Positions 6,147-54,754 of a stretch of 64,000 nt of DNA are shown here, one piece after another. The notes under the pieces are model-generated. The model saw nothing but the letters and a program-made list of their open reading frames with translations. It did not search any database and was not told the origin of the DNA. The stretch covers positions 2,621,442-2,685,441 of the forward strand of contig NZ_CM001974.1 of the NCBI RefSeq assembly GCF_000406105.1. Reading direction: 5' to 3'. The stretch's first letter is position 1. Every line of letters begins with the position of its first letter. The stretch is from Dickeya chrysanthemi NCPPB 402. GTDB lineage: Bacteria; Pseudomonadota; Gammaproteobacteria; Enterobacterales; Enterobacteriaceae. A program made the translations under genes and the position numbers.

Positions 6147-7316
6147 ATGAGTGATTTTCATCACGGTACGCAGGTCGTCGAAATCAACGACGGTACCCGC
6201 GTCATTTCAACTGTATCAACCGCGATCGTCGGTATGGTCTGTACCGGACCGGATGCTGACGCCGCCACTTTTCCACTGAATACACCGGTACTGATTACCG
6301 ATGTGCTGACCGCCGCAGGCAAAGCCGGTAAAACCGGGACTCTGGCTGCCGCGTTGCAGGCCATCGGCGACCAGACCAAGCCGGTTACGGTAGTCGTTCG
6401 CGTAGCTGAAGGCGCCAACGAGGCTGAAACGGTGTCCAACATCATCGGCGGTGCCGATGCCAACGGTAAATACACCGGCATGAAAGCCCTGCTGGATGCT
6501 CAGGCCGTCACTGGCGTGAAGCCGCGTATTCTCGGCGTTCCGGGGCTGGATTCCCAGCCTGTCGCCACCGCGCTGGCCGCAATCTGTCAGTCACTGCGCG
6601 CCTTCGGTTACGTGAGCGCTTATGGCTGTAAAACCCTGTCCGATGCCATCAAATACCGCGGTAACTTTAGCCAGCGCGAACTGATGGTGATTTGGCCGGA
6701 CTTTATCGCCTGGAACACCGCGACCAACGCCAGCGCCACGGCCTATGCCACCGCGCGTGCACTGGGTCTGCGCGCCAAGATCGACCAGGAAACCGGCTGG
6801 CACAAAACCCTGTCCAACGTCGGCGTCAACGGCGTGACCGGTATCTCCGCCAGCGTCTACTGGGACCTGCAGACCATCGGCAGCGATGCCGACCTGCTGA
6901 ACGAAGCCGGCGTGACCACGCTGGTGCGTAAAGACGGTTTCCGTTTCTGGGGTAACCGTACCTGTTCCGATGATCCGTTGTTCCTGTTCGAAAACTATAC
7001 CCGCACAGCGCAGGTACTGGCCGACACCATGGCTGAAGCGCACATGTGGGCGGTCGACAAACCGGTAACCGCCACCCTGATCCGCGACATCATCGAAGGT
7101 ATCAAGGCAAAATTCCGCGAGCTGAAATCCAACGGCTACATCATCGACGCCGACTGCTGGTTCGATGAAAGCGCCAACGATAAAGAAACGCTGAAGGCCG
7201 GCAAGCTGTACATCGACTACGAGTACACCCCGGTACCGCCACTGGAAAACCTCACGCTGCGTCAGCGTATCACCGACAAGTATCTGGTGAACCTGGCTGC
7301 ATCCGTTAACAGCTAA
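6147..7316 (+). CDS. P2-type contractile tail sheath protein FI
   Basis: 389 residues when started at ATG 6147, which follows GGAGA by ten bases; an upstream in-frame ATG at 6057 would add 30 residues foreign to the family. The start MSDFHHGTQVVEINDGTRVISTV and the SKPV/TKPVTVVVRV motif match P2 gpFI. The protein polymerises around the tube and contracts on firing. The sequence is intact from end to end and FII follows after 14 bases with its own ribosome site. Codon use is GC-rich and smooth, so there is no sign of decay. Confidence 0.93.
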   Translation: MSDFHHGTQVVEINDGTRVISTVSTAIVGMVCTGPDADAATFPLNTPVLITDVLTAAGKAGKTGTLAAALQAIGDQTKPVTVVVRVAEGANEAETVSNIIGGADANGKYTGMKALLDAQAVTGVKPRILGVPGLDSQPVATALAAICQSLRAFGYVSAYGCKTLSDAIKYRGNFSQRELMVIWPDFIAWNTATNASATAYATARALGLRAKIDQETGWHKTLSNVGVNGVTGISASVYWDLQTIGSDADLLNEAGVTTLVRKDGFRFWGNRTCSDDPLFLFENYTRTAQVLADTMAEAHMWAVDKPVTATLIRDIIEGIKAKFRELKSNGYIIDADCWFDESANDKETLKAGKLYIDYEYTPVPPLENLTLRQRITDKYLVNLAASVNS

Positions 7317-41103: not shown

Positions 41104-42023
<920 letters not shown>

Positions 42024-42357
42024 CGATTACGCGTTAATTCCCCCTCATATTCACCGCCGTGTTGCCCTGACAGCAACGTCGCTCTGGCAACAGACACAGC
42101 GTCACCGCACACGGCGGGTTTTAGTCCTGTTTTTTGTCTTGTATCCTGATGTGGCGTGGCTTCTCCGGTTTTTAATACCACCGCCAATGAGGATCTCCGG
42201 CCAGGTCTTACCCAATCCGTAGATCACAAAACGCTTATACCCAGCCGGTTGGCGGAAGTTCTATTTTTTAAGACAATAGTTCGAAGCTCAGCAAATAAAA
42301 CACTGCAAATAAACACCCCCTAACCATTCAATAAACAGTCACTCCATAATATTCAAC
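42024..42357. other. Intergenic stretch after azoR
   Basis: No gene, and no strong hairpin with T-run. Base composition turns AT-rich from about 42240 to 42357, marking the start of the accessory block. Confidence 0.45.
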
Positions 42358-42559
42358 TATACCCAAAATAATTCGAGTTGCAGGAAGACGGCGACGCAGC
42401 GAATCCCGGTGAGCTTACTCAAGTAAGTGACTGGGGGGAGCGACAAATCTGCCGGGAGCAGATTTGAACGCAGCTCGCTGCGGTCCTGAAAGGGCGAGGC
42501 CCAGGGATGGGCCGAGTAATAAAGCCAACGCACCTGCAACTTGAAGTATGACGGGTATA
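42358..42559 (+). repeat. Long variant (202 bp) of the 127-bp repeat
   Basis: It has the same ends as copies 1 and 2 (TATACCCAAAATAATTCGAG ... GACGGGTATA) but carries about 75 extra internal bases with their own palindromes (CAAATCTGCC...GGAGCAGATTTG; GCAGCTCGCTGC). Same orientation as the other copies. It sits at the left edge of the AT-rich fructan locus. Confidence 0.8.
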
Positions 42560-42718
42560 AATAATACTGAGCTTCATACCGAAGGTTGTAATTATGGATA
42601 AGGAAATTATTGAGTGACATTCTGTAAAAACGATTGGCAACATCAAAAGACCCATCACGCAAATCAATCAATAATGCTCAACTTGCACCAGAAAAATTGA
42701 GAGAACGATTCTTCTTTT

Positions 42719-42737
42719 CATGTAACAAAACTACATG
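42719..42737. promoter_or_regulatory. Operator palindrome CATGTA-N7-TACATG for the locus LacI regulator
   Basis: The same 6-7-6 palindrome occurs at 49123-49141 upstream of the LacI-family gene, with a different spacer. The pair of sites, one at each promoter end of the locus, makes a regulator operator likely. Confidence 0.6.
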
Positions 42738-42751
42738 TGACATGGATTACA
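42736..42751. promoter_or_regulatory. Candidate CRP site
   Basis: TGTGA-CATGGA-TTACA matches the CRP consensus at 9 of 10 core bases and overlaps the operator by two bases. A TATAGT at 42773-42778 would be a fitting -10 box, with CRP centred near -41. Confidence 0.5.
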
Positions 42752-42778
42752 ATTTCAATTTCCATCACTATTTATAGT

Positions 42779-43111
42779 GGGCCCCCTGTCGGAACAACGT
42801 ATGCATATTCATGGAACCCATTAACGATGTAGCAAAAAATCGTGCTCTTTGGCATGGCTGTATCTCGCGTTTTGAACAACAACGAACCGAACAACATTGT
42901 GGGATAAATAATCTCTTTTTTCTTCGCTGGCACAACCTTAACGGCTGTGTTTTTTATTCATGACAGCGCATGTTGAACGGACAAGGCAGTTGTCCGGCTC
43001 TACGGGCGAGCACAGCGAATAAACCGGAGCGTACACGCAGTACGTGAGGAGTTCGGGCACTGCCCTGGTCAAAAATGGCAAGTAAAATAAGACTCTAAGT
43101 GAGGTATGTTT
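42779..43111 (+). promoter_or_regulatory. Long leader of the GH91 operon with a probable dispersed repeat
   Basis: No coding frame of note. Bases about 42975-43075 (AAGGCAGTTGTCCGG, GAATAAACCGGAGCGTACA, CAGTACGTGAGG, GGGCACTGCCC) look like an intergenic repeat I associate with soft-rot and related enterobacteria, but no second copy is in the window. GAGG at 43101-43104 serves the symporter start. Confidence 0.35.
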
Positions 43112-44545
43112 ATGTCTGCTGGCTCAATAGAAAAGCAGAGCGCTTACGAAAAACTGGGCCTGAGAGAGAAGGTAGGCTACGGCATGGGGGATGCCGGCTC
43201 TTGTATGATATGGAGCGTACTGGCGCTGTATTTGACTTGGTTTTACACCGATATCTACGGTCTGGAACCCAAGACCGTCGGTACATTATTTTTGGTAATC
43301 CGTATCTTTGACGCATTTATCGATCCAGTCATGGGCGCTGTTTGTGACCGGACTAAAAGCCGCTGGGGCAAATTTCGCCCCTGGCTACTGTGGATGGCCC
43401 TTCCGTTTGGCCTGGGTGCAATAGCGATGTTCACTACACCAGACCTGAGCATGAACGGAAAAATTATTTATGCCTGGATAACCTACCTAATTATGTCGCT
43501 GATTTATACGGCGATAAATATTCCGTATTGCTCGGTAGCGGGTGTCATGACGTTGAATCAGAAAGAACGCATGGGCTGTCTGTCATGGCGCTTTTTCCTT
43601 AACGGCCTGGCAACGCTTATCATCTCGTCTACTATTCTCCCCCTAACGGACTGGCTGGGTAACGGTAACCGGGCTTCCGGATTCCAAATGACGATGATGA
43701 TAATGGGCGGAGCTGCCACCTTAATGTTCCTGCTCTGCTTCTCCAGTATTAAGGAACGTGTTACCTCAGTTAAGGCCAACGACTCGTTAATACGAGATCT
43801 GAAAGACATCGCCAAAAATGATCAATGGGTGCTGATGATTTCTATCACCTTCCTTAACGTCTTCCCGGCATTTATTCGCGGCGCAGTCACTATTTATTAC
43901 GCTACTTATGTGATGCAGGCTTCTGTCGGGTTTATAACCTTCTTTATGGCTCTCGGCGTCGCCTGTAATATGTTGGGCAGCGTTATTGCTAAGCCGCTTA
44001 CGGATCGCTTCGATAAAATTAAGCTGTTCCGCCTTATTAATGTCATTCTTGGTATTCTATCGTTCGCGCTGTGGTTTGTTGAACCCTTCTCACTCGCGCC
44101 GCTGTTAGCATTATTTATTGTCATCAATATCCTACATTTAATCCAGTCGGGACCAATCCTGTGGGCCATGATGTCCGATGTTGATGACTACGGCGATTGG
44201 AAATTTGGCAAGCGGCTAACCGGAATTTCCTTTGCAGGGAACCTTTTTATGCTGAAAATGGGCCTGGCGGTGGCCGGAGCTATCGTTGCCTGGATCTTGT
44301 CGTATACCGGCTATATCGCTAATAATCCAGAGCAAAATTCACAAACGATTCAGGGCATTATTATCATGTTTACGCTTCTACCCATGGTGAGCTATTTCAT
44401 CAGTGCTTATATGGCACGCTATTTCAAGCTTAACAACACTTTTCTGGAAAAAATCAAAGTCGACCTCGCAAAGCGCGGACTGGAAAATGGCTATTCTGGA
44501 TCACAGGAGCATAAAGATGTTCCTGCTATTCAACCCACACATTAA
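43112..44545 (+). CDS. GPH-family sugar:cation symporter of the difructose anhydride locus
   Basis: 477 residues from ATG 43112 (GAGG seven bases upstream; ATG 43106 lies too close to it). Twelve helices of the glycoside-pentoside-hexuronide family: KVGYGMGDAGSCMIWSVLALYLTWFYTDIYGL, the loop DAFIDPVMGAVCDRTKSRWGKFRPWLLW, PYCSVAGVMTLNQKERM, and MMSDVDDYGDWKFGKRLTGISFAG in the second half. Relatives such as MelB move di- and oligosaccharides with Na+ or H+. It is first in an operon with the GH91 gene 73 bases downstream. Likely cargo is a fructose disaccharide anhydride or short inulin product, inferred from the neighbours. Confidence 0.85.
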   Translation: MSAGSIEKQSAYEKLGLREKVGYGMGDAGSCMIWSVLALYLTWFYTDIYGLEPKTVGTLFLVIRIFDAFIDPVMGAVCDRTKSRWGKFRPWLLWMALPFGLGAIAMFTTPDLSMNGKIIYAWITYLIMSLIYTAINIPYCSVAGVMTLNQKERMGCLSWRFFLNGLATLIISSTILPLTDWLGNGNRASGFQMTMMIMGGAATLMFLLCFSSIKERVTSVKANDSLIRDLKDIAKNDQWVLMISITFLNVFPAFIRGAVTIYYATYVMQASVGFITFFMALGVACNMLGSVIAKPLTDRFDKIKLFRLINVILGILSFALWFVEPFSLAPLLALFIVINILHLIQSGPILWAMMSDVDDYGDWKFGKRLTGISFAGNLFMLKMGLAVAGAIVAWILSYTGYIANNPEQNSQTIQGIIIMFTLLPMVSYFISAYMARYFKLNNTFLEKIKVDLAKRGLENGYSGSQEHKDVPAIQPTH

Positions 44546-44618
44546 TTTTTAAATACACAGAGATGCAGCGGAATTGGCAGATTGTTTTTATTTCATTACT
44601 ACTAAAGGAGCATTATTA

Positions 44619-45989
44619 ATGACTAGAAAAAATTATTACGATGTAACAGCATGGAAAATTGGTAATCCGTATCAGGATATCGGCGAGGTAATTAATAGCA
44701 TAATTAAAGATATTAAAAATCGGCAAACGCAGACCGATGTTGATGAGGGGGGTAAACCAGGCGCGGTTATTTATATACCGCCAGGAGACTACCACTTAAC
44801 TACCCAAGTAACGATTGATATCAGTTATCTTAGAATAGAGGGTTCCGGCCACGGTTTTACCTCTTCAAGTATTCGCTTTAATACGCCGGAAAGTGAATGG
44901 AAAAACTGGCATGAAGTGTGGCCGGGTGGCAGCCGTATCCTGGTAGATCTTTCTCCAAAAGCTGGAGATGAGGAATATAATGGAGCCGCGTTCTACGTTA
45001 AGAGGGATGGTAACCCGCGCATAAGCTCAGTTGAATTTGCTGGTTTCTGTATTGACGGTTTACACTTCGTGGATGATAACTCGGGCCATAACGATCCAGA
45101 AAATACTTATATTAACGGCAAGACCGGTATTTATATCGACAGCGCTCAGGACTCATTTTGCATCACAAATATGGGACTCGTCTATTTAGAACACGGTGTA
45201 ACGATATATAATGCAGATGCACTTTCAATCCATAATAATTTTATTGCCGAATGCGGAAATTGTATTGAGCTACGAGGATCTGGGCAGGCTTCAAAAATCA
45301 CAGATAATTTAATAGGTGCGGGTTATAATGGCTATTCAATTTATGCTCAAAATTTTGGCGGCCTGTTAATCTCAGCTAACAATGTGTTCCCGCGCGGTTC
45401 CAGCAGTGTCTATTTCTCCGGCGTGGTGCGATCTACAATCACCAGCAACAGATTCCATTCGTTTTATCCAGGCATGCTGGTACTTGAAAATAATTGCTCG
45501 GAAAATCTCGTATCTTCGAATCATTTTTTTCGCGAGCATGAGCCATGGGGGCCAATGCAGAAGTACGATAATGGCTTAGATGATTTATATGGCCTACTAT
45601 ATATTAGTGGGAGTAACAATTCCGTCATTGCCAACCATATTTCAGAAACCATATCTACACAATATATTAAACCCTCTGGTGCCAAACCGGTAATAATACA
45701 TCTTGTTTCAGGTGACGGAAATTATATTTCTGGCAACCATATTGTCGCCACGACCGAAGCATCAGAAGCTCAGGCTAAAGCAAAGAATTCCTGCTTCGAT
45801 ACTCAGGTGCGCGCTTTGCTGGCTGTCGCCACCCTGAGGTCGCTTGACGTAACCATGGTGCAGGTAGAAACAGAGTCGCGACAAAATACGATTCTGGATT
45901 CTGGATGTGATGCACAGGTAGTTATGGACAGGACTGTAAATGCATTTAGAGCCACTCCCACGCCTGGAGTATACAGCCTTAACTCTTAA
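44619..45989 (+). CDS. GH91 inulin fructotransferase / difructose-anhydride hydrolase family protein, cytoplasmic
   Basis: 456 residues from ATG 44619, which follows AAAGGAG by eight bases. Right-handed beta-helix of family GH91: YDVTAWKIGNPYQDIGEVINSII, GGKPGAVIYIPPGDYHLTTQVTI, NGKTGIYIDSAQDSFCITNMGLVYLEH, LPGM/YPGMLVLENN-type turns, and NGLDDLYGLLYISG. The catalytic pair is kept: D200 (NADALS) and E211 (IAECGN), 11 apart as in studied members. Family members either cut inulin to difructose anhydrides outside the cell or open those anhydrides to inulobiose. No signal peptide is present, so a cytoplasmic ring-opening hydrolase is the better guess. Base composition is AT-rich, unlike core genes. 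GH91 is rare in enterobacteria to my knowledge. Confidence 0.85.
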   Translation: MTRKNYYDVTAWKIGNPYQDIGEVINSIIKDIKNRQTQTDVDEGGKPGAVIYIPPGDYHLTTQVTIDISYLRIEGSGHGFTSSSIRFNTPESEWKNWHEVWPGGSRILVDLSPKAGDEEYNGAAFYVKRDGNPRISSVEFAGFCIDGLHFVDDNSGHNDPENTYINGKTGIYIDSAQDSFCITNMGLVYLEHGVTIYNADALSIHNNFIAECGNCIELRGSGQASKITDNLIGAGYNGYSIYAQNFGGLLISANNVFPRGSSSVYFSGVVRSTITSNRFHSFYPGMLVLENNCSENLVSSNHFFREHEPWGPMQKYDNGLDDLYGLLYISGSNNSVIANHISETISTQYIKPSGAKPVIIHLVSGDGNYISGNHIVATTEASEAQAKAKNSCFDTQVRALLAVATLRSLDVTMVQVETESRQNTILDSGCDAQVVMDRTVNAFRATPTPGVYSLNS

Positions 45990-46009
45990 TAAAGATCGGG
46001 TTAAGCAGT

Positions 46010-46034
46010 GGGTGTCTTAAAGACACCCTTTTTC
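46010..46034 (+). terminator. Terminator of the symporter-GH91 operon
   Basis: GGGTGTCT-TAA-AGACACCC followed by TTTTTCTTT, 20 bases after the stop. The next 150 bases to the converging GH32 gene hold nothing visible. Confidence 0.92.
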
Positions 46035-46187
46035 TTTGCGACTTTAATGCAGGAATAATAACACTCAAGGGCGTAGCGTTATTTGTCTGGAAGAACTCTC
46101 AACGGGAGTAGAGCCTGGAGTTGCCATTAAATAGAGCACTGAGGATGGCGATGCAGTGCCACATATTTTCATTGTTATTACCCACGA

Positions 46188-47912
46188 TTATTGCCCCCAA
46201 GTGCTACGATATTGCGTAAGTTTTGCTGCCGTGACCCTCGCCGACGGATTGTATTCAAGCTTAATCTCCTGACAAACACTGATATGGAAGTAGCGCCGTG
46301 TTCCGCAATGGCTCCCTTGGTTAGCAAATACTTCAACGATGCCGGCGTCGAAGAACAGCTCAAGCTCGTTTAATTCCTCAATGTAAGCACAATACTGTCC
46401 GTCATCATGTCCTTCGGCCCGTAGTATGAGCCGGCTTTCCTCATAACAAAGCGTTACTTGCCCGCCGCTTTCTCCCTTAAATGTCAGGAGCAGATGGGAA
46501 ATCCCCTCACCGTTCAGCTTCACAGAGAACGATTGCAGCATAGCGGCGGGTAGCCGCAACTGACCGTCAAGGATGTCGTCGTGATGCTCGGTTTGCCGTA
46601 CTATGCAGGACCCCGGCGGCGTCACGGGTTGCATGCACAGCAATCCAGCACTATTGAGTGCAAACCGGCGCGGCAGAGACATTTCGCCGTTGTAAACCGA
46701 AGCAACGTTTTTTTTGCTGGCCCAGTTATATAGCCAGGCAAAACCCAATATTTCCTGCCCATCACGAAATGTCTGAAGAGCATAAAAATCAGTACCAAAA
46801 TCCAAGGGCTGCAATTTATTGTCGTCGGGGATAAAGCAACCATCGCTGAATTCGCCAGTCTGGGCATATAGCAGATTGTGACGCCCGGTTTGTGGCTCGG
46901 TATAGCCAACAATCCCCATGATTAATACCCATTTCTCGCCGATTGAGAAAAAATCCGGGCATTCCACGCAACGTCCGCCATGCTGCCTGAAATGTTTATC
47001 CGCCCGATATAGCACATGGTCGAATACCCAGTCTTCACCGTTAATCGAAGTAAAAAGTAGTACTGCCGGATCGGCATCTACCGACGATCCAAGCAGCATC
47101 AGGTAGCTATTTTTGTCGTTATCAAACCAGACTTTCGGATCCCGGAAATCACAGCTCACGCCTGCAGGCAGGTCACTTAATACCGGTTTAACTGACTCAA
47201 CCTTATCCAGCCAACGGCTTGGCCTGGCACATTTTTGCACCTCCCGATAGCCGGTATAGAGATCGTAGGCTGGCAGACGCTCTGTAAAATAGAACCGGAT
47301 GCTGCCATCGCAGTCCTGAAAGGCAGTGCCGGAAAACGCACCACCTGTTGCACCCAGCGCCTCAAGGTTTTGCTCCGGTTGTAAAAACACCGGATAGTGC
47401 CGCCAGTGGTATAAATCCATACTAGCTGCATGTCCCCAATGCATCGGTCCCCATTCAGTGCCGTGAGGATGGTATTGATAAAAAAGATGATAGGTGTCGC
47501 CGATTTTGCATAGACCGTTAGGATCATTCATCCAGTTGATAAATGGAGAGAAATGTAAGGCCGGACGTAACGATTCCTGAGCATACCAAGTATCCATCTC
47601 ACCGCGTGAGACCGGGCGTAGTGCATGAAAGTCATCGACCAAGAATGTAACGCCTTCTTGTGATAAAGTTTTCGGCTGCCAATAGTAAAACAAAGAAATA
47701 TCCGCAGCTTCGTCATCCCATTCAATCGATAGCGGTTGGTCAGAATAATGGATATAAGTGAAATACTGATAATATTCAGCGGCCTTTTTTATAGCATAGA
47801 CTGTATTTCCCGCTGTTGAAAATCGCAATAATGGCGTATATATATCGTGTTTTTTCTTTAACCAAAAATCAAAACGCATACCCGATGTTGCGGGCAGTGT
47901 TAAATTTCTCAT
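46188..47912 (-). CDS. GH32 fructosidase with N-terminal extra domain, cytoplasmic
   Basis: 574 residues. Residues 1-110 form a beta-rich extra domain not found in plain sucrose-6-phosphate hydrolases (FDFWLKKKHDIYTPLLRFSTAGN...WDDEAADISLFYYW). The GH32 five-blade propeller follows with nucleophile D130 (WMNDPNG), transition-state stabiliser D258 (FRDPKVW) and acid/base E317 (VECPDFF), then a beta-sandwich (about 430-570). It hydrolyses beta-fructosidic bonds. No signal peptide. Context suggests it splits inulobiose or inulo-oligosaccharides released by the GH91 enzyme. Minus strand, convergent with GH91; downstream of the LacI gene. Confidence 0.88.
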   Translation of the reverse strand: MRNLTLPATSGMRFDFWLKKKHDIYTPLLRFSTAGNTVYAIKKAAEYYQYFTYIHYSDQPLSIEWDDEAADISLFYYWQPKTLSQEGVTFLVDDFHALRPVSRGEMDTWYAQESLRPALHFSPFINWMNDPNGLCKIGDTYHLFYQYHPHGTEWGPMHWGHAASMDLYHWRHYPVFLQPEQNLEALGATGGAFSGTAFQDCDGSIRFYFTERLPAYDLYTGYREVQKCARPSRWLDKVESVKPVLSDLPAGVSCDFRDPKVWFDNDKNSYLMLLGSSVDADPAVLLFTSINGEDWVFDHVLYRADKHFRQHGGRCVECPDFFSIGEKWVLIMGIVGYTEPQTGRHNLLYAQTGEFSDGCFIPDDNKLQPLDFGTDFYALQTFRDGQEILGFAWLYNWASKKNVASVYNGEMSLPRRFALNSAGLLCMQPVTPPGSCIVRQTEHHDDILDGQLRLPAAMLQSFSVKLNGEGISHLLLTFKGESGGQVTLCYEESRLILRAEGHDDGQYCAYIEELNELELFFDAGIVEVFANQGSHCGTRRYFHISVCQEIKLEYNPSARVTAAKLTQYRSTWGQ

Positions 47913-48027
47913 AACATTGCTCTTTTGGTAGTGATAAGAAAATTATTTTTCGATACAGACTGCACCTCTATAGTACACTCTGCATTGGTCTAAACTGCCG
48001 AGGGCTAAATACACATAACGAGAATGA

Positions 48028-49038
48028 TTAAATCTTTGTCACAGTAACACTCAGACTGCTCTCCCGAACAATAAGTTTGGTGGTTAACTCTATTGAATCG
48101 ATATGCTCTTTATTTTCTGAAGAATTAATCAACTCAAAGGCCAACTTACCCATTTCATTTATGGGCTGTGCAATACTTGTAATGTTCATCATCTGAGCAA
48201 TTATTGTATTATCGAAGCTAGCGATAGCGATATCCTCTGGAATATTGACACCACGACGACGGAGATTCTCTATAATATAACTTGCGGCCACATCGTTATA
48301 AATAAATAAGCAGTTTAATTTACCTTTCTGTGCCAAAATATTATCAACTATATTATCCAATGATTGAATATGTCCGCGGTTATTTTCACCGTCGCCTTTG
48401 GGGATCCAATAGCTGTGATGCTTTTCCACCCGGTAGCCGTGACTGAGTACTTTCTTACAGAAGGCCGACATCTTACGGTTGTCCACCCCATCCTGACCGA
48501 TGAAGCCAAAGCAGGTGCGGCCGATATCAATAAAATGCTCGGCTATCGTTTCCGCCCCACGTTCTTGATTGTTGGAAACCGAATCAAAAAAGCGCGAGGT
48601 CTGTGTCACCACTGCGGTATGAATTCCGGTAGCCTTAAGCCAATCTGAGAGCGAAACCTCCGCCTCGGTGGGTACCCAAATCAACGCATCAATACCCATC
48701 CCAGCCAGCGCTCTAATTAGCTGTCGATCCTGAAACGGCTGATTCTGGTGAGTCTTAACCAGTATCGTCTTTCCTACATAGCGGGCTTCTTCTTCGAGAG
48801 AGGCCAGCAACTCGCAGAAATGGGGGTTGACCAGATTAGGAACCACTACACCAATCAGACCAGAGCACTTACCACTGAGCTGAACGGCATTTCTATTGGG
48901 AACGTAGCAGAGAAAATCCATGGCCTCGTGCACTGCGCGACGGGTTTCCACCGTGACGCTGGGGTGGTTGTTAATGACCCGCGATACGGTGGCAGTTGAA
49001 ACGCCCGCCTTGGTTGCTACATCTCTGATCGAAGCCAT
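48028..49038 (-). CDS. LacI-family transcriptional repressor of the locus
   Basis: 336 residues from ATG 49038: helix-turn-helix MASIRDVATKAGVSTATVSRVINNHPSVTVETR and the hinge helix NRNAVQLSGKCSGLIGVVVPNLVNPHF; a longer frame to 49125 would run through the operator cluster. The C-terminal sugar-binding fold includes GIDALIWVPTEAE, FGFIGQDGVDNRKM and DIAIASFDNTIIAQMMNITSIAQP. GH32 lies 115 bases downstream on the same strand and probably shares its transcript. Expected to repress symporter-GH91 and GH32 until a fructose oligosaccharide or phosphate binds. Confidence 0.88.
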   Translation of the reverse strand: MASIRDVATKAGVSTATVSRVINNHPSVTVETRRAVHEAMDFLCYVPNRNAVQLSGKCSGLIGVVVPNLVNPHFCELLASLEEEARYVGKTILVKTHQNQPFQDRQLIRALAGMGIDALIWVPTEAEVSLSDWLKATGIHTAVVTQTSRFFDSVSNNQERGAETIAEHFIDIGRTCFGFIGQDGVDNRKMSAFCKKVLSHGYRVEKHHSYWIPKGDGENNRGHIQSLDNIVDNILAQKGKLNCLFIYNDVAASYIIENLRRRGVNIPEDIAIASFDNTIIAQMMNITSIAQPINEMGKLAFELINSSENKEHIDSIELTTKLIVRESSLSVTVTKI

Positions 49039-49390
49039 GGAAACAATGTTACCGGTTACATTTGTTACATGAATGACAGCTAGTGTAGGAAGATCACCTG
49101 CTAAAAAATGTTGTGCAGATCTCATGTATTATCGTTACATGGGCTTAGGATTTTGATCACAAATGTAGTAAGGAGAGTTATACGCTGTCTTTAGTTATAC
49201 GAGATTTTCTGTATGACCTTACTGGCATAAAAATTTTAGTCCTTAAGCCGGGCGGCCTTCCTACTTTCCGCTTGACTCGTTCATCTTTCAGGCCACCGCA
49301 CAAATTACCTATAGCAGATGTTTTATTCAGCCGATTAGGCCTGCTATCATTTATCTATTGCACTAGATTATCACTCAACAGGTTTTTTCT
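49039..49390. promoter_or_regulatory. lacI-type regulator promoter with operator cluster
   Basis: CATGTA-N7-TACATG at 49123-49141 matches the operator at 42719-42737. Closer to the start, ATGTTACCGGTTACAT (49046-49061) and a further GTTACAT (49064-49070) repeat the half-site, suggesting autoregulation. Bases 49150-49390 show no gene. Confidence 0.55.
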
Positions 49391-49825
49391 ATGAACAATA
49401 AACAGCGCCGGGAAATCGGCACCGAACTGTCCTTTGCGTTATACGGCGCAGCCAACCGGATGAACCGGATGCACAAGATCTTCCTCGATCCGCTCGGGCT
49501 GACCTTTCCGCAGTACCTTGTGATGCTTGAACTGTTTAACCAGACACCGCGAACTGTCGGCGAACTGGGCAACAAACTGGGGATGGATACGGGCACCATC
49601 ACACCGCTGCTGAAACGGCTTGAAACCGCCGGCAGGGTACAACGTACACGTGATACGAACGACGAGCGACGCGTGCTGATAACACTCACCGAGGCCGGCG
49701 AGGCGCTTCATGACGAGCTCTGGAGCATTACCGGAAAAATAAAATCGGCCTGTCGGCTTACTGAAGACGAGCTGACGCAGCTTCGCGACACACTCAACGC
49801 TTTTGCTCACCCCGCCGCTGAATAG
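49391..49825 (+). CDS. MarR-family transcriptional regulator
   Basis: 144 residues with the winged helix typical of OhrR/SarZ-like MarR proteins: YLVMLELFNQTPRTVGELGNKLGMDTGTITPLLKRLETAGRVQRTRDTNDERRVLITLTEAG. It lacks the N-terminal redox cysteine of OhrR (ALYGAANRM instead). It probably regulates the two reductase genes that follow after 29 and 33 bases in the same direction. Confidence 0.88.
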   Translation: MNNKQRREIGTELSFALYGAANRMNRMHKIFLDPLGLTFPQYLVMLELFNQTPRTVGELGNKLGMDTGTITPLLKRLETAGRVQRTRDTNDERRVLITLTEAGEALHDELWSITGKIKSACRLTEDELTQLRDTLNAFAHPAAE

Positions 49826-49854
49826 CGGCAGGTCATTTCACAGGAGAAAATCTC

Positions 49855-50589
49855 ATGATTATTAGCATCATTGGCGCAGGTAATATTGGCGCATCGCTGG
49901 CTAGAAAACTTTCTGCCTGCGGGCATATCGTAAAACTAACCAATTCCAGAGGGCCTGAAACCATTCGTGACATAGCCAACGAAGCTGGTGCCAAGGCAGT
50001 CACGCGCGAAGAAGCCGTCAGTGATGTTGACGTGATTATCCTTGCTATTCCTTTTGGGAAGCACAGTGAACTCGCTACCTTGCTAAGCAACGCGCCGGCA
50101 AATGCGACCCTCATCGATACATCAAATTACTATCCGTTTCGTGATGGTTCGATTGCCGATGTTGAGCATGGAAAACCTGAAAGCGTCTGGGCCAGCGAGC
50201 AAGCCGGACGGACGCTCATCAAGGCGTGGAATGCCGTACTTGCTGCCACACTTTCAGACAAGAGCCTGCCAGCCGGTGCTGCCGGACGAATCGCCATTCC
50301 GGTTGCTGGTGACGATGAAAAAGCAAAATCCACCGCTATGGCATTAGTTAGTGAAACGGGGTTTGAGCCCGTAGATGCAGGCTCACTGACGGAATCCTGG
50401 CGCCAGCAACCTGGCTCGCCCGCGTACTGCACAGAATTGTCCCCTGCTGAGTTGAAAACGGCCTTGCAGAAGGCTGATAAAGCCCGCGCCCCGAAAAATA
50501 GGGACACTCTGATGGACGAGTTTATGTCTGCCAGAGAAACGCTTACACACGATCATATTGTTGCCCGTAACAGGGCAGTTACCGCTTAA
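49855..50589 (+). CDS. NAD(P)-binding oxidoreductase, F420-dependent NADP reductase type
   Basis: 244 residues with an N-terminal Rossmann fold (IISIIGAGNIGASLARKLSACGH), NSRGPETI after beta-2 (NADP-type), DVIILAIPFGKHSEL and IDTSNYYPFRDG. Proteins of this fold reduce flavins, coenzymes or keto groups with NADPH; the substrate is not told by the sequence. CAGGAG lies eight bases upstream. Middle gene of the MarR operon. Confidence 0.8.
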   Translation: MIISIIGAGNIGASLARKLSACGHIVKLTNSRGPETIRDIANEAGAKAVTREEAVSDVDVIILAIPFGKHSELATLLSNAPANATLIDTSNYYPFRDGSIADVEHGKPESVWASEQAGRTLIKAWNAVLAATLSDKSLPAGAAGRIAIPVAGDDEKAKSTAMALVSETGFEPVDAGSLTESWRQQPGSPAYCTELSPAELKTALQKADKARAPKNRDTLMDEFMSARETLTHDHIVARNRAVTA

Positions 50590-50622
50590 CTCTAGAGAAT
50601 TAGCCAGCTGCAGGAGGTACCG

Positions 50623-51336
50623 ATGAACCACTCAATACTCACTAAACCGCAGTCATCCATTCATGACGCGCTGTCCTTTAGCGAAACAGTACGGCTTCGT
50701 CGTTCTTACCGGGGTTTTCTTCAAACTCCTGTTCCGCAGGAAATGTTGCTCAGCGTGTTAGAAGATGCCCAGCAAGCACCTTCTAACTGCAATACCCAGC
50801 CGTGGAATGTACATATTGTTTCAGGCCAGAAACTGACAGAACTGGCGGAAATACTCCATGAGAAGAATAATGCCGGGGAGTTCACACCCGATTTTACCTT
50901 CGATATGAACCATTTTTATGGCGCATACGGCGAACGTAAAAATGCGCAGGGCAAGGCTTATTATGAAGCCATGAATGTTGCCCGTGAGGACAAAGAGAAG
51001 CGCCACCGGGCCGCGGCATATAATTATTCATTTTTTAACGCCCCGCATGTTGCGCTGCTCTTCATGCCGACGTTTGGTGACAATGTCCGTGTGGCGGGTG
51101 ATATCGGCATGTACGGCCAGACTTTTCTGCTTTCCCTTGCTGCGCACGGGCTGGGTGGTATCCCGCAAACCTCTCTCGGCTTTTTTGCTGACCCCGTACG
51201 TCGCTTCTTGGGTATCCCTGATAATTTGAAGCTACTGTTTGGTATCTCCTTTGGTTATCCGGATGAAGCAGCACCGGGTAACCGCATGAGAATGGATCGC
51301 GTAGATATCAGCGAATCAGTGACCTTTCATAACTAG
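50623..51336 (+). CDS. Nitroreductase-family FMN oxidoreductase
   Basis: 237 residues. RLRRSYRGF starts the FMN-binding pattern, followed by DAQQAPSNCNTQPWNVHIVSG, AYNYSFFNAPHVALLFMP, MYGQTFLLSLAAHGLGGIPQ and FGISFGYPDE. It reduces nitroaromatics or quinones with NAD(P)H in the cytoplasm. GGAGG is eight bases before the ATG. Last gene of the MarR operon; this set looks like a response to electrophilic or nitroaromatic compounds. Confidence 0.88.
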   Translation: MNHSILTKPQSSIHDALSFSETVRLRRSYRGFLQTPVPQEMLLSVLEDAQQAPSNCNTQPWNVHIVSGQKLTELAEILHEKNNAGEFTPDFTFDMNHFYGAYGERKNAQGKAYYEAMNVAREDKEKRHRAAAYNYSFFNAPHVALLFMPTFGDNVRVAGDIGMYGQTFLLSLAAHGLGGIPQTSLGFFADPVRRFLGIPDNLKLLFGISFGYPDEAAPGNRMRMDRVDISESVTFHN

Positions 51337-51689
51337 TTCAATGCCAGGCTAATAAGCTGACTGCATAACGGTTATGAAACTTAACAGAAGTTATCAAATG
51401 AAGCTTTTGATAAGGAAAGAGAAGATAAATAATTAATCACAGCTGCGGATTGGTATGCTGAACTCAAGTCATACCACAGAACACTGATATGCAGCTTTGC
51501 GTTACGAAAACCGGGCAGTGACGTTCTAATACCCTTTGCGTCCTTTTTTCACGTTAAAAAAGAATCAGGTTCCGGATTCGGGACCTGTTATGCCGCTGTA
51601 GCTAAAGGCTGACCGGATTTTATGTATCAGAACGTTGTGATCTACGCCAAAATCGACGCTGTAAATAATTCAGTGTAACTGCCATCCCA
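51337..51689. other. Non-coding stretch between nitroreductase gene and IS remnant
   Basis: No gene is recognised. TTTTTTCACGTTAAAAAA and CAGGTTCCGG...GGGACCTG near 51545-51595 are small hairpins. It seems to be junction DNA left by the insertion and deletion next door. Confidence 0.4.
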
Positions 51690-51788
51690 TCACCGGTGAT
51701 CGCTCAGTCGGTCACCGAATTCGATAATAAAACGGCTCATCGCCAGCCGTATCACGCTGTTCAGCGATTCGATAGCGTTCGTGGTATC
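51690..51788 (-). pseudogene. IS256-family transposase remnant (3' end, internally deleted)
   Basis: On the minus strand 32 codons read DTTNAIESLNSVIR followed at once by LAMSRFIIEFGDRLSDHR and a stop. TTNAIESLNSVIR is the IS256-family hallmark near the end of the transposase, and AM-x-RF-x-IxFxDR is its last segment. About 40 residues normally between them are missing. No terminal inverted repeats were identified. Confidence 0.7.
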
Positions 51789-51918
51789 TATCGTGTCCAT
51801 CAACTCGCATCGGTTAGCGCTAATCAAACAGAATGAGACACGTTAATTGACTGTTTTAACACTTAACGCCTTGAAGGCCCTGAGTTTTTAACATCACTGT
51901 CGGCGCGCGTTTATCCAT

Positions 51919-52122
51919 TTAATTTTTCTTTATCTTATCGCCAATGCGGTTATCCGACTTCTCCAGCAACTGTACCGTTTCTTTATCCGTTCGGATGTGA
52001 ATGTCGTGTTCAATGCGCACGTTCATGTTGATGGTAATCGGTTCTTTCGGTGCCGCCACCTCAATACGCGGGGTGCAACCGGTTAGCAACGCAACGACTA
52101 TCGCGGCACAGGCTGTTTTCAT
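51919..52122 (-). CDS. ynbE: Outer-membrane lipoprotein YnbE
   Basis: 67 residues. Lipoprotein signal with lipobox LLTGC (Cys16), then PRIEVAAPKEPITINMNVRIEHDIHI, the conserved YnbE segment. In E. coli YnbE joins the C-terminal end of YdbH to make a bridge for lipids across the periplasm. It follows ydbH by 28 bases. The usual third gene, ydbL, is missing downstream. Confidence 0.9.
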   Translation of the reverse strand: MKTACAAIVVALLTGCTPRIEVAAPKEPITINMNVRIEHDIHIRTDKETVQLLEKSDNRIGDKIKKN

Positions 52123-52150
52123 CTCATTCCCCTTTGATGTTCATAGTGAG

Positions 52151-54754
52151 TTACTCGGCAGCCTGCTGCTCCAGCGATGCCTTTAGATTGTCGCCAAAAC
52201 GCAGGCTGTGCCATAACTGGAAAACATTCTCCTGCTGGCGATAATTGAGCACAATGTCACGCTGCGACTGGTCATCCATCACGCTATGCCCTGTAACGCG
52301 GGATACCAGCGACAATTCGCCGCGCTGACTGAGATCCATCGTCACCCAGGAACGTCCGATCTCCATATAGCGCAACCAGGCAACCACGGCGGCGTTGGCG
52401 ACACTGTTGCGCGCCAGTTGGTCCGCCAGTTGCGGATCAAGCCGTACCGTCAGCGGCGTGTCATTGGTAAATTTACCATTCTGCACCAGCATCGAAGGGT
52501 GGCTAAAATTCAACGGTACTACCCCGCTGATACGGCCGGACATCGACAGCTTTTTCGCTTTCAACCCATTCACCAGTTCACCGATGTCGATACCCTGTAA
52601 CCGTAATATCGCTGCATCATGCGCCGGCAAACGCAGCGGCGACAGCGACACATGTCCATCCAGCACATCCAGTTCCAACTGCGCCAGCGTCAGCGGGCGA
52701 CGTTCGCTGTAGGGATAAGAGCCATACATCTGTATGTCGATATTTTGCATCGGAAACAGGCTATCGAGCCGGTTAATGCGCAACGCTACCGGACGGGAGA
52801 TACCCAGTTGCCAGCGATGATTTTCAAACCGATACGGCAGCACGAAGTTTACGCCGCTGACATTGCCATCCTCCAGCCAGGCGTTGCCGTTTTTCACCGC
52901 CCAGTGCCCGCCCGCGTGGAATCCCTGACCACGCGCGGCGGAAAACGCCGCCTGTGCATAAAACTGACCGGAACGGATCGCCAGCTTCCAGTTTGGCGGC
53001 AGCAACGTCTGGAATACCCGCAGTGGTTGCGGTGCCCACCACCCGCTGCCGCGCAGCCGTTGCCCATCCCAACGGCCGTTAAGCCGGACGGGGCCGACCT
53101 CGTCCGCCTGCAACTGACCTCGCCACTGAAAATCCCGCGGATTGCGTCCACGAATATCAAGAGTCAGCTCCGTGGCGGGTAATTCTCCTGCGCCACGAAA
53201 ATTCACCTGCTTCGCCGCCAGCGTCAGCGCGCCGAATAGCGTCCCTGCCGTCGGATCGCGATGCCAGCGTAATGGTTTGGTCAACGTCAGCCGGGGCTGA
53301 GCCACCGTCACCACACCGTAACGGAGTTGGTTAAGCCCGCTGGAGAGAGATTCAACTTCAATCAGGTCGTTCAGCCAGCGGCCATGGCCGGCGATATCCC
53401 AGCGGCCCTGCAACGGCGGCAACTCCCCCTCGCCCCAGTAGCGCCAGCGCCAGTCGCCGTTATCCGGCCAGAACTGCTGTGCTTTACCGTCCAGATGCAG
53501 GCGAAAACGCCCCCAATAGCTATCGCGGACTTTCACAATCGCCTGCAACCTGCCGCTGACGCCCCCTCGAGTCACCTGAATACCCGCCAGCGGCCAGCGC
53601 GCTTCTTCCAGCATCACTGTTGGGCGCGGCATTCCAAAGGCGCGTAACAGCGAACCAGGTAACAATGTGACGGTAGGGTCCAACGCCGCGCCGTTCACCA
53701 CACCCGGTAACGACGCGAATATCGATAAATCGGGTAAGTTAACTTGCCCGGTGAGTTGAAAACGCATATCGCTATCGGTCAGCCCCAGCAAACCGGGCCC
53801 CAGCGATAAAACGGCGTTCGCACGGCCGTTATGACCTTGCGTCAGGAGATTGATTCGTGCTTCCAGCCGCAGCGGATCACGCGGTTGTAATAGGTCATAC
53901 AGCGTCAGCGAGACGCCGCCCCTTAGCGGCTGACCGGCGTAAGGCCAATGCCACTGACCGCCCTGAATACGAAGATGACCGTCGCTGACCTGCCACGGCA
54001 ACGTCAGCAACGGTTCGGTCATTGACGCCACACTGACCGTCAGCTCGCCCTGATTACCCTGCCAGCGCAACACCGCACTGGCAGGCTCAGGTAACCGCAA
54101 CGGCAGGTATTGTCCTTGCACCTCGCCGCGTTGCGGCAGTCGGTTGAGCGTCGGCGCCAGGTGCATTACACCGTTGACCTGCAACGGCGCCTCCTCCGTC
54201 GCGGCGTGCATCAGGCCTTGTTGCAGCGTCAATTCAGTGCCGTGCAGTTCGGCCTGCAGTTGTAGCGGGTCGCTCTGAATCCGCAGTTGCTGGCGCGATG
54301 CGTCGGTAGAGAATTGCAGGCTACCGGCCTGATTCAGCCAGGGTGCCACCGTGACACGATGCAACGTCAGTTCAGCTTCAGGCAGCCACCGTTGCCACTG
54401 AGCCAGTTGCAACGCCGCCGTCCCGGAAGACGCCGGCCATTGCCGCAGACACTCGGCATCCAACGTCAGCGCTTGTACATCCAATCGCCAGAGCCCTTGA
54501 TGATAACGGACGCGCAACCCGGACAGCGTGGCGGCGCGACACGGCGCCAGATGAAGTTGTGCGTCAGGCAGCCAAAATCCACCTTGCCGCCAGCCGGGCG
54601 TCGCATCCATCACCAGGCTGGCACCAACGGGCAAATAAGGCCGCAACACCATCGGCAGCCAACGCGGCATCGTCCAGCAGGCAGCCGCTACCCCCAGCGC
54701 CAGCACCAACGCCAGTACGGCCAGCCAACCAACACAGCGCATTAACTTCAGCAT
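52151..54754 (-). CDS. ydbH: AsmA-like intermembrane lipid-transport protein YdbH
   Basis: 867 residues, close to E. coli YdbH. One N-terminal inner-membrane anchor (VGWLAVLALVLALGVAAACW), then a long beta-rich repeat region as in other AsmA-like bridges, with the conserved end AILRLQGIDIGELVNGLKAKKLSMSGRISGVVPLNF and RDIVLNYRQQENVFQLWHSLRFGDNLKASLEQQ. YdbH, TamB and YhdP together move phospholipids to the outer membrane in E. coli. First gene of a two-gene operon with ynbE. Confidence 0.9.
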   Translation of the reverse strand: MLKLMRCVGWLAVLALVLALGVAAACWTMPRWLPMVLRPYLPVGASLVMDATPGWRQGGFWLPDAQLHLAPCRAATLSGLRVRYHQGLWRLDVQALTLDAECLRQWPASSGTAALQLAQWQRWLPEAELTLHRVTVAPWLNQAGSLQFSTDASRQQLRIQSDPLQLQAELHGTELTLQQGLMHAATEEAPLQVNGVMHLAPTLNRLPQRGEVQGQYLPLRLPEPASAVLRWQGNQGELTVSVASMTEPLLTLPWQVSDGHLRIQGGQWHWPYAGQPLRGGVSLTLYDLLQPRDPLRLEARINLLTQGHNGRANAVLSLGPGLLGLTDSDMRFQLTGQVNLPDLSIFASLPGVVNGAALDPTVTLLPGSLLRAFGMPRPTVMLEEARWPLAGIQVTRGGVSGRLQAIVKVRDSYWGRFRLHLDGKAQQFWPDNGDWRWRYWGEGELPPLQGRWDIAGHGRWLNDLIEVESLSSGLNQLRYGVVTVAQPRLTLTKPLRWHRDPTAGTLFGALTLAAKQVNFRGAGELPATELTLDIRGRNPRDFQWRGQLQADEVGPVRLNGRWDGQRLRGSGWWAPQPLRVFQTLLPPNWKLAIRSGQFYAQAAFSAARGQGFHAGGHWAVKNGNAWLEDGNVSGVNFVLPYRFENHRWQLGISRPVALRINRLDSLFPMQNIDIQMYGSYPYSERRPLTLAQLELDVLDGHVSLSPLRLPAHDAAILRLQGIDIGELVNGLKAKKLSMSGRISGVVPLNFSHPSMLVQNGKFTNDTPLTVRLDPQLADQLARNSVANAAVVAWLRYMEIGRSWVTMDLSQRGELSLVSRVTGHSVMDDQSQRDIVLNYRQQENVFQLWHSLRFGDNLKASLEQQAAE

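Follow-up and report, generated by a model that had tools for sequence, protein, structure and literature searches.

Genes and features of the locus

In the soft-rot plant bacterium Dickeya chrysanthemi NCPPB 402, one locus encodes a GPH-family symporter, GH91 and GH32 proteins and a LacI-family regulator. Very probably it was acquired and serves growth on difructose anhydride (DFA) III, a cyclic fructose sugar that remains when other microbes digest inulin and that would be imported, opened to inulobiose and split to fructose. The DNA analysed, hereafter the window, is the 64,000-nucleotide stretch at positions 2,621,442 to 2,685,441 of the forward strand of contig NZ_CM001974.1 (assembly GCF_000406105.1). 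The four genes are clustered at 43106–49038 of the window, all are intact, and they form two converging pairs, symporter–GH91 on the plus strand and GH32–LacI on the minus strand. This four-gene set had been proposed in a first-pass annotation of the window, and the genes were found where it had placed them, with agreeing Pfam and NCBIfam assignments (MFS_2/GPH symporter; Beta_helix_2 of inulin fructotransferase; GH32 N- and C-terminal domains; LacI). The features of the two gene pairs, in window coordinates, are:

42720..42737, plus strand: predicted operator ATGTAAC-N6-ACATG upstream of the symporter gene (exact motif, conserved in relatives)
42736..42751, plus strand: CRP-like site TGTGACATGGATTACA, also upstream of the symporter gene in a same-genus relative and in E. 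coli
43106..44545, plus strand: GPH-family cation symporter, predicted importer (TIGR00792, 398.4 bits; PF13347, 286.9 bits)
44619..45989, plus strand: predicted GH91 DFA III hydrolase, predicted cytoplasmic (match to PDB 5zks, lid, C392, D200, E211, tree)
46009..46032, plus strand: likely intrinsic terminator of the symporter–GH91 operon (hairpin followed by a T run, read from the sequence)
46033..46187, no strand: position of a PfkB fructokinase-like gene in relatives (between GH91 and GH32), with none here
46188..47912, minus strand: GH32 beta-fructofuranosidase, predicted inulobiose hydrolase (PF00251, 229.8 bits; family motifs)
48028..49038, minus strand: LacI-family regulator (PF00356/PF13377)
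49046..49061, minus strand: further LacI-type site, the palindrome ATGTAACCGGTAACAT, immediately ahead of the regulator gene (palindrome scan and promoter alignment)
49123..49140, minus strand: predicted operator ATGTAAC-N6-ACATG upstream of the LacI–GH32 pair (motif alignment and scans)

The symporter score for TIGR00792 (398.4 bits) lies well above the cut-off of 231.35 bits. The GH91 start codon, an ATG at 44619, is preceded by an AGGAG-like ribosome site, and no hydrophobic leader or signal peptide is evident after it, the N-terminus having been judged by eye. The GH32 protein carries WMNDPN, FRDPK and VECPDF at residues 127, 256 and 316, so that WMNDPN, RDP and EC, which we take to be hallmarks of GH32 beta-fructofuranosidases, are all present. 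The regulator most likely starts at 49038, downstream of the start of a longer open reading frame, because conserved operator-like sites sit upstream of 49038 within that longer frame. The regulator therefore probably begins later than had been drawn. Six pectate lyase matches in the genome are consistent with a soft-rot lifestyle.

The GH91 protein as a predicted DFA III hydrolase

Matches to PF18835 and Beta_helix place the GH91 protein in the right-handed beta-helix fold family. When solved structures were searched with phmmer, the best match was the DFA III hydrolase (DFA-IIIase) of Arthrobacter (5zks, E 3.3e-197), with fructotransferase structures far behind (9j4i, 2.4e-108; 2inu, 3.7e-103; 8hsn, 1e-81). 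The window protein is 67% identical to the Arthrobacter chlorophenolicus enzyme, AcDFA-IIIase (5zks, 5zku, 5zkw), over 442 residues, and shares with it the lid, a cysteine (C392, aligned with C387 of 5zks) and the catalytic acids; identity to the DFA III-forming fructotransferase 9j4i is 51% over 359 residues. The first-pass annotation had read D200 and E211 as the retained catalytic pair, and both were recovered by alignment, occurring in 102 of 103 aligned GH91 rows, with a gap at these positions in the remaining row. Replacement of the corresponding residues of the A. aurescens enzyme, D207 and E218, which are likewise eleven residues apart, is reported to have abolished activity (PMC4640833).

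AcDFA-IIIase is described as hydrolysing DFA III thanks to its lid, the removal of which turns it into a fructotransferase (PMC11538131). The first-pass annotation had called for a structure-based comparison at the lid; by sequence alignment, the hydrolase lid was found in the window protein at about residues 380–411. It is missing from six of the 103 rows, namely 9j4i, L082_3_113 and the second GH91 genes of loci L048, L050, L069 and L079. The copied part of 9j4i ends at the lid and L082_3_113 is a fragment that stops earlier, so that neither informs on lid loss; the second genes of L048 and L050 are identical to each other and cut at their start, and both reach the lid position. True absence of the lid is thus seen in three distinct sequences (L048/L050, L069 and L079). 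A tree was built by a quick method from 93 rows, after removal of L001 and L002 (repeats of genomes G000 and G002), the truncated L082_3_113 and seven identical rows. A branch with support of 99 separates 89 rows, including the window protein and AcDFA-IIIase, from four fructotransferase-type rows. Identity to AcDFA-IIIase, lid, catalytic acids and tree placement mark the window protein as a predicted DFA III hydrolase, apart from the inulin fructotransferases, as the first-pass annotation had argued.

Family and catalytic pair would equally fit an exported inulin fructotransferase forming DFA III. The window protein, however, has the lid and no leader peptide evident by eye, whereas the fructotransferase-like neighbour in a Paenarthrobacter locus (L079) has a leader that looks twin-arginine-like, by a motif that we presume to mark such leaders; the probability of an exported fructotransferase is practically negligible. 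Second, lid-less GH91 genes near a hydrolase gene were observed in some rhizobial-type and Paenarthrobacter loci (from base 3 in L048 and L050, 3856 in L069 and 9242 in L079), and the L079 pair fits an exported DFA maker beside a cytoplasmic hydrolase.

It is also very unlikely that the natural substrate is another difructose anhydride, such as DFA I or a caramel-type dianhydride. The GH91 family does include DFA I-forming enzymes, and for the homologue of Pectobacterium betavasculorum NCPPB 2795 (L005) the genome paper, which also reports feeble growth on inulin, lists as best match an 'inulin fructotransferase DFA-I-forming' (PMC10991766). Yet the hydrolase lid is present in this protein, which falls into the hydrolase clade of the window protein, so that the published name looks wrong and 'DFA-I-forming' looks like a family-level label. 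Moreover, a Blautia hydrolase is stated, as data not shown, to be inactive on DFA I (PMC11538131). Labels such as 'NosD domain-containing protein' and 'inulin fructotransferase DFA-I-forming' may hide a widespread hydrolase set.

Gene neighbourhoods and the predicted importer

Neighbourhoods were classed in 85 loci (80 from a contig survey plus L083–L086 and L096), the window and the short loci L001, L002 and L087–L094 being left out of this count. ABC transporter genes occur in 50 of the 85. A close GPH homologue, 83–90% identical to that of the window, accompanies GH91 in every one of the 20 Enterobacterales loci, all with long flanks, and in no other locus; two loci, from Sporolactobacillus and Companilactobacillus, have a distant one (28–30%). 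The other 13 showed no transporter above the score thresholds, some of them lying at contig ends or having weaker permease matches. Three clostridial-type loci (L023, L046, L053) have a kinase gene beside GH91 and neither transporter nor GH32 detected with the references used; contig extent or divergent genes may lie behind this.

A phyletic survey of the gene set had been proposed by the first-pass annotation. None of the 20 Enterobacterales loci lacks the LacI, symporter or GH91 gene; GH32 lies within 7 kb in nine, and a kinase and a RafY-like porin (PF16966) are found in six each. LacI, GPH and GH91 are thus the constant core in Enterobacterales, and GH32, kinase and porin are variable. Since symporter and GH91 stay together in all 20 loci, with GH32 near in nine, the symporter appears to belong with GH91.

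In Blautia, GH91 and GH32 enzymes with ABC transporter genes beside them have been reported to turn DFA III into fructose; DFA III supported growth of three of four cluster-bearing strains and was degraded by the remaining one, which is unable to use fructose (PMC11538131). The window locus has in common with this cluster a lid-bearing GH91 hydrolase and a GH32 enzyme beside an importer, and a proposed route through inulobiose. It differs in operon layout and in having a GPH cation symporter in place of the ABC importer, a different version of a like function, and its regulator and motif are known from sequence only. ABC genes also accompany GH91 in the Arthrobacter/Paenarthrobacter loci L073, L079 and L082, and L079 has the additional fructotransferase-like GH91; the window locus has neither. 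Among Enterobacterales, the DFA-IIIases of Salmonella enterica Mbandaka and Duffyella gerundensis, which are GH91 hydrolases as well, are cited as characterised in PMC11538131, where GH91 homologues of Klebsiella and Serratia are also named. The locus of E. coli B20159 (L083) shares the converging layout, with GPH, GH91 and RafY-like porin genes converging on kinase, GH32 and LacI genes; the shared genes are 76–90% identical and the operator-like motif is present twice, whereas porin and kinase genes are absent from the window locus.

The DFA III pathway is already known, also from Enterobacterales. What appears to be new is the GPH symporter instead of an ABC system in all 20 enterobacterial loci, together with one shared operator-like motif. 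We lean towards the reading that the GPH symporter imports a difructose anhydride in Enterobacterales, within a self-contained travelling unit whose LacI would control essentially one locus through an ATGTAAC-N6-ACATG operator. If true, no such symporter and no regulator would have been linked to a difructose anhydride before, as far as a literature search shows, and the locus offers a test case for a cation-coupled importer of such a sugar.

The operator-like motif and regulation

In a promoter alignment of the window and six relatives, ATGTAAC-N6-ACATG was aligned before the symporter gene and before lacI, with one mismatch in the lacI copy of L003; the symporter-side site of L003 is exact, though the aligner reversed that sequence. 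As an exact match, the motif was found at every one of the 20 long-flanked Enterobacterales GH91 loci; no exact match occurs in the remaining 92 of 112 loci, among which are many short pieces or other genome parts. The window contains two perfect copies, at 42720 and 49123; when a single mismatch is tolerated, shuffled sequences average 0.31 occurrences and 5 of 100 reach two. Throughout the genome (4.7 Mb) it is found three times, two of them at the locus, against none for the reversed control. In the six loci compared from the GH91 clade of the window, LacI is 84–90% identical to that of the window. We infer that ATGTAAC-N6-ACATG is the operator of the LacI of the locus and that the regulon is mainly the locus itself.

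The site at 42736–42751 was matched to CRP by a consensus that we assume, and eight other enterobacterial loci carry a similar one in front of lacI. The palindrome scan found no operator-like site directly upstream of the window GH32 gene, and no RNA families were found at gathering scores in 42000–52200.

The absent kinase and porin genes

The first-pass annotation had called the locus complete-looking. Its four genes are indeed present, but the fructokinase-like gene of G002, a relative in the same genus, and of E. coli is missing. A PfkB kinase gene lies between GH91 and GH32 in both of these and on a Citrobacter plasmid. No kinase remnant was detected in 45981–46200: beyond 20 bases of the terminator at 46009–46032, which recur in G002, the matches were 13 bases long or shorter. 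Elsewhere in the genome, a scr region encodes ScrK, which exceeds the NCBIfam fructokinase cut-off (492.9 against 450 bits), as well as a sucrose phosphotransferase system, ScrB and a fructose-responsive LacI, each above its NCBIfam cut-off, and a maltoporin-like protein below its cut-off. A search of the genome found no RafY-like porin elsewhere. The scr region could supply the missing kinase and porin, with ScrK replacing the fructokinase of the locus.

Proposed pathway

From the observed enzyme class, gene set, motif conservation and insertion of the locus (see below), the transport substrate, flux, operator function, inducer and growth may be reconstructed as follows. A general or sucrose-type porin would let DFA III pass the outer membrane, and the GPH symporter would carry it inward with a cation. 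In the cytoplasm the GH91 hydrolase would open it to inulobiose, which GH32 would cleave to two fructoses; this removal of inulobiose would draw the reversible GH91 step forward. The ScrK of the genome would then phosphorylate the fructose. LacI would repress the symporter–GH91 and LacI–GH32 halves through the shared ATGTAAC-N6-ACATG, and cyclic AMP–CRP probably helps to activate the symporter operon. The core of the first-pass annotation, an intracellular GH91 hydrolase with import and conversion through inulobiose to fructose, is supported by the lid, the tree, the neighbourhoods and the operator-like motif. The genome has a single GH91 match; because no second, inulin-cutting GH91 was found in it, the locus points to possible cross-feeding of the plant pathogen on products of other microbes, as the first-pass annotation had proposed. 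The DFA III pathway of soil and gut bacteria would in this way extend to a soft-rot plant bacterium.

Several points weigh against this pathway. For strain NCPPB 402 it is drawn from sequence alone, and a literature search that covered few subscription papers found no GPH symporter carrying DFA III. The locus is without the kinase found in its relatives, GH32 is not an obligate partner, since 11 of the 20 loci from Enterobacterales do not have it within 7 kb, and the third genomic copy of the motif (G000:C21:2573584-2573601) lies outside the locus, about 90 kb away. In addition, the Blautia hydrolase is reported to act in vitro on nystose, GF4 and inulin as well (PMC11538131), and enzyme class alone therefore does not fix the natural substrate. 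This activity would fit a locus for short inulin-type fructo-oligosaccharides or free inulobiose, in which GH91 merely trims oligosaccharides in the cell, and disaccharide transport by a GPH symporter is feasible from what is known of the family. For such sugars, however, GH32 alone would be enough, whereas symporter, LacI and GH91 are the genes found together in all 20 Enterobacterales loci; a fructo-oligosaccharide locus is therefore unlikely, and DFA III remains the most probable substrate.

Probable acquisition of the locus

The locus lies within an insertion, the features of which are:

42153..51921, no strand: inserted segment (about 9.8 kb), bounded by azoR and by the conserved stretch that follows (empty site in sister genomes, low GC)
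42358..42559, no strand: ERIC-type element, a dispersed inverted repeat outside the function of the locus (core pattern and copies in the genome)
42965..43090, plus strand: second dispersed repeat, in the symporter leader (10 matches in its own genome)
49391..51336, plus strand: co-inserted MarR regulator, NADP oxidoreductase and nitroreductase genes, outside the pathway (domain matches and flank comparison)
51648..51749, minus strand: IS256-family transposase remnant at the right end of the insertion (DNA similarity)

In six of eight same-genus genomes, azoR is followed 25–137 bases on by sequence matching window positions 51922–51925, i.e., the site is empty; for the remaining two, the 10 kb taken yielded the left flank but not the right. 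The left edge of the insertion falls between 42066 and 42152. Its content is, in order, the DFA set, the MarR–oxidoreductase–nitroreductase group and the IS256-family remnant. In G002 the DFA set lies about 0.28 Mb from the empty azoR site of that genome, and a 99% identical MarR gene is found at a third place. That the site is empty in six of the eight sister genomes and that the set has a different position in G002 is firm evidence that the locus was acquired, or at least moved. The first-pass annotation had suggested transfer of a block that is richer in AT than its neighbours. The composition agrees (GC of 40–51% up to 49 kb, against 56–60% to the left and 52–62% beyond 52 kb) and gain by transfer is borne out by the empty site, but the insertion extends to about 51.9 kb, beyond the 49.1 kb at which the block had been ended.

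The repeat at the edge of the block, which had been taken as a further sign of transfer, was rejected as such. It is one copy of a common dispersed family with 64 matching pieces in the genome, where 40 out of 205 first-look candidates were scored, and says nothing on transfer; its core matches, with three mismatches, what we take to be the ERIC consensus. The repeat at 42965–43090 was not seen in the aligned symporter leaders of six relatives and may change symporter expression. The IS256-family remnant is 82–85% identical to stretches annotated as IS256 family or ISEc39 transposase (ten rows listed); Pfam gave no match for a 49-residue piece of the right edge, and the assignment comes from DNA similarity. 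A direct repeat at the insertion edges (42180–42199 and 51937–51956) matches at 16 of 20 bases, a level reached in 1 of 60 shuffles. It is too weak for att sites and is possibly a relic of the insertion event.

Distribution of GH91 loci

GH91 relatives are encoded by 109 of 113 candidate contig stretches, 80 of which were kept for the survey; a one-protein query was used, and this count is a floor. Among 72,556 plasmid records, 85 had a match (70 of them Rhizobium), or 84 after exclusion of a Limosilactobacillus match (31% identity over half the length) that is not closely related. Relatives occur in 6 of 5426 E. coli genomes, in two of nine genomes of the genus, the window genome included, and in 10 of 295 genomes of a family sample that includes the window genome and G002. 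Eleven had initially been reported for this sample, and the match in G185 was rejected (57 residues, 31%, E 7e-4). The locus is therefore widespread but patchy, not rare. The quick tree suggested that Enterobacterales had gained GH91 more than once, but this was not upheld: a tree with all 26 enterobacterial rows in one clade had a log-likelihood 39 higher (p-AU 0.911). In Citrobacter freundii the gene set with the kinase lies at 6486–13253 of L085, from the 292-kb plasmid pA-NDM-202212, flanked by an IS110-like element, which is beside aminoglycoside and sulfonamide resistance genes, and by a recombinase gene.

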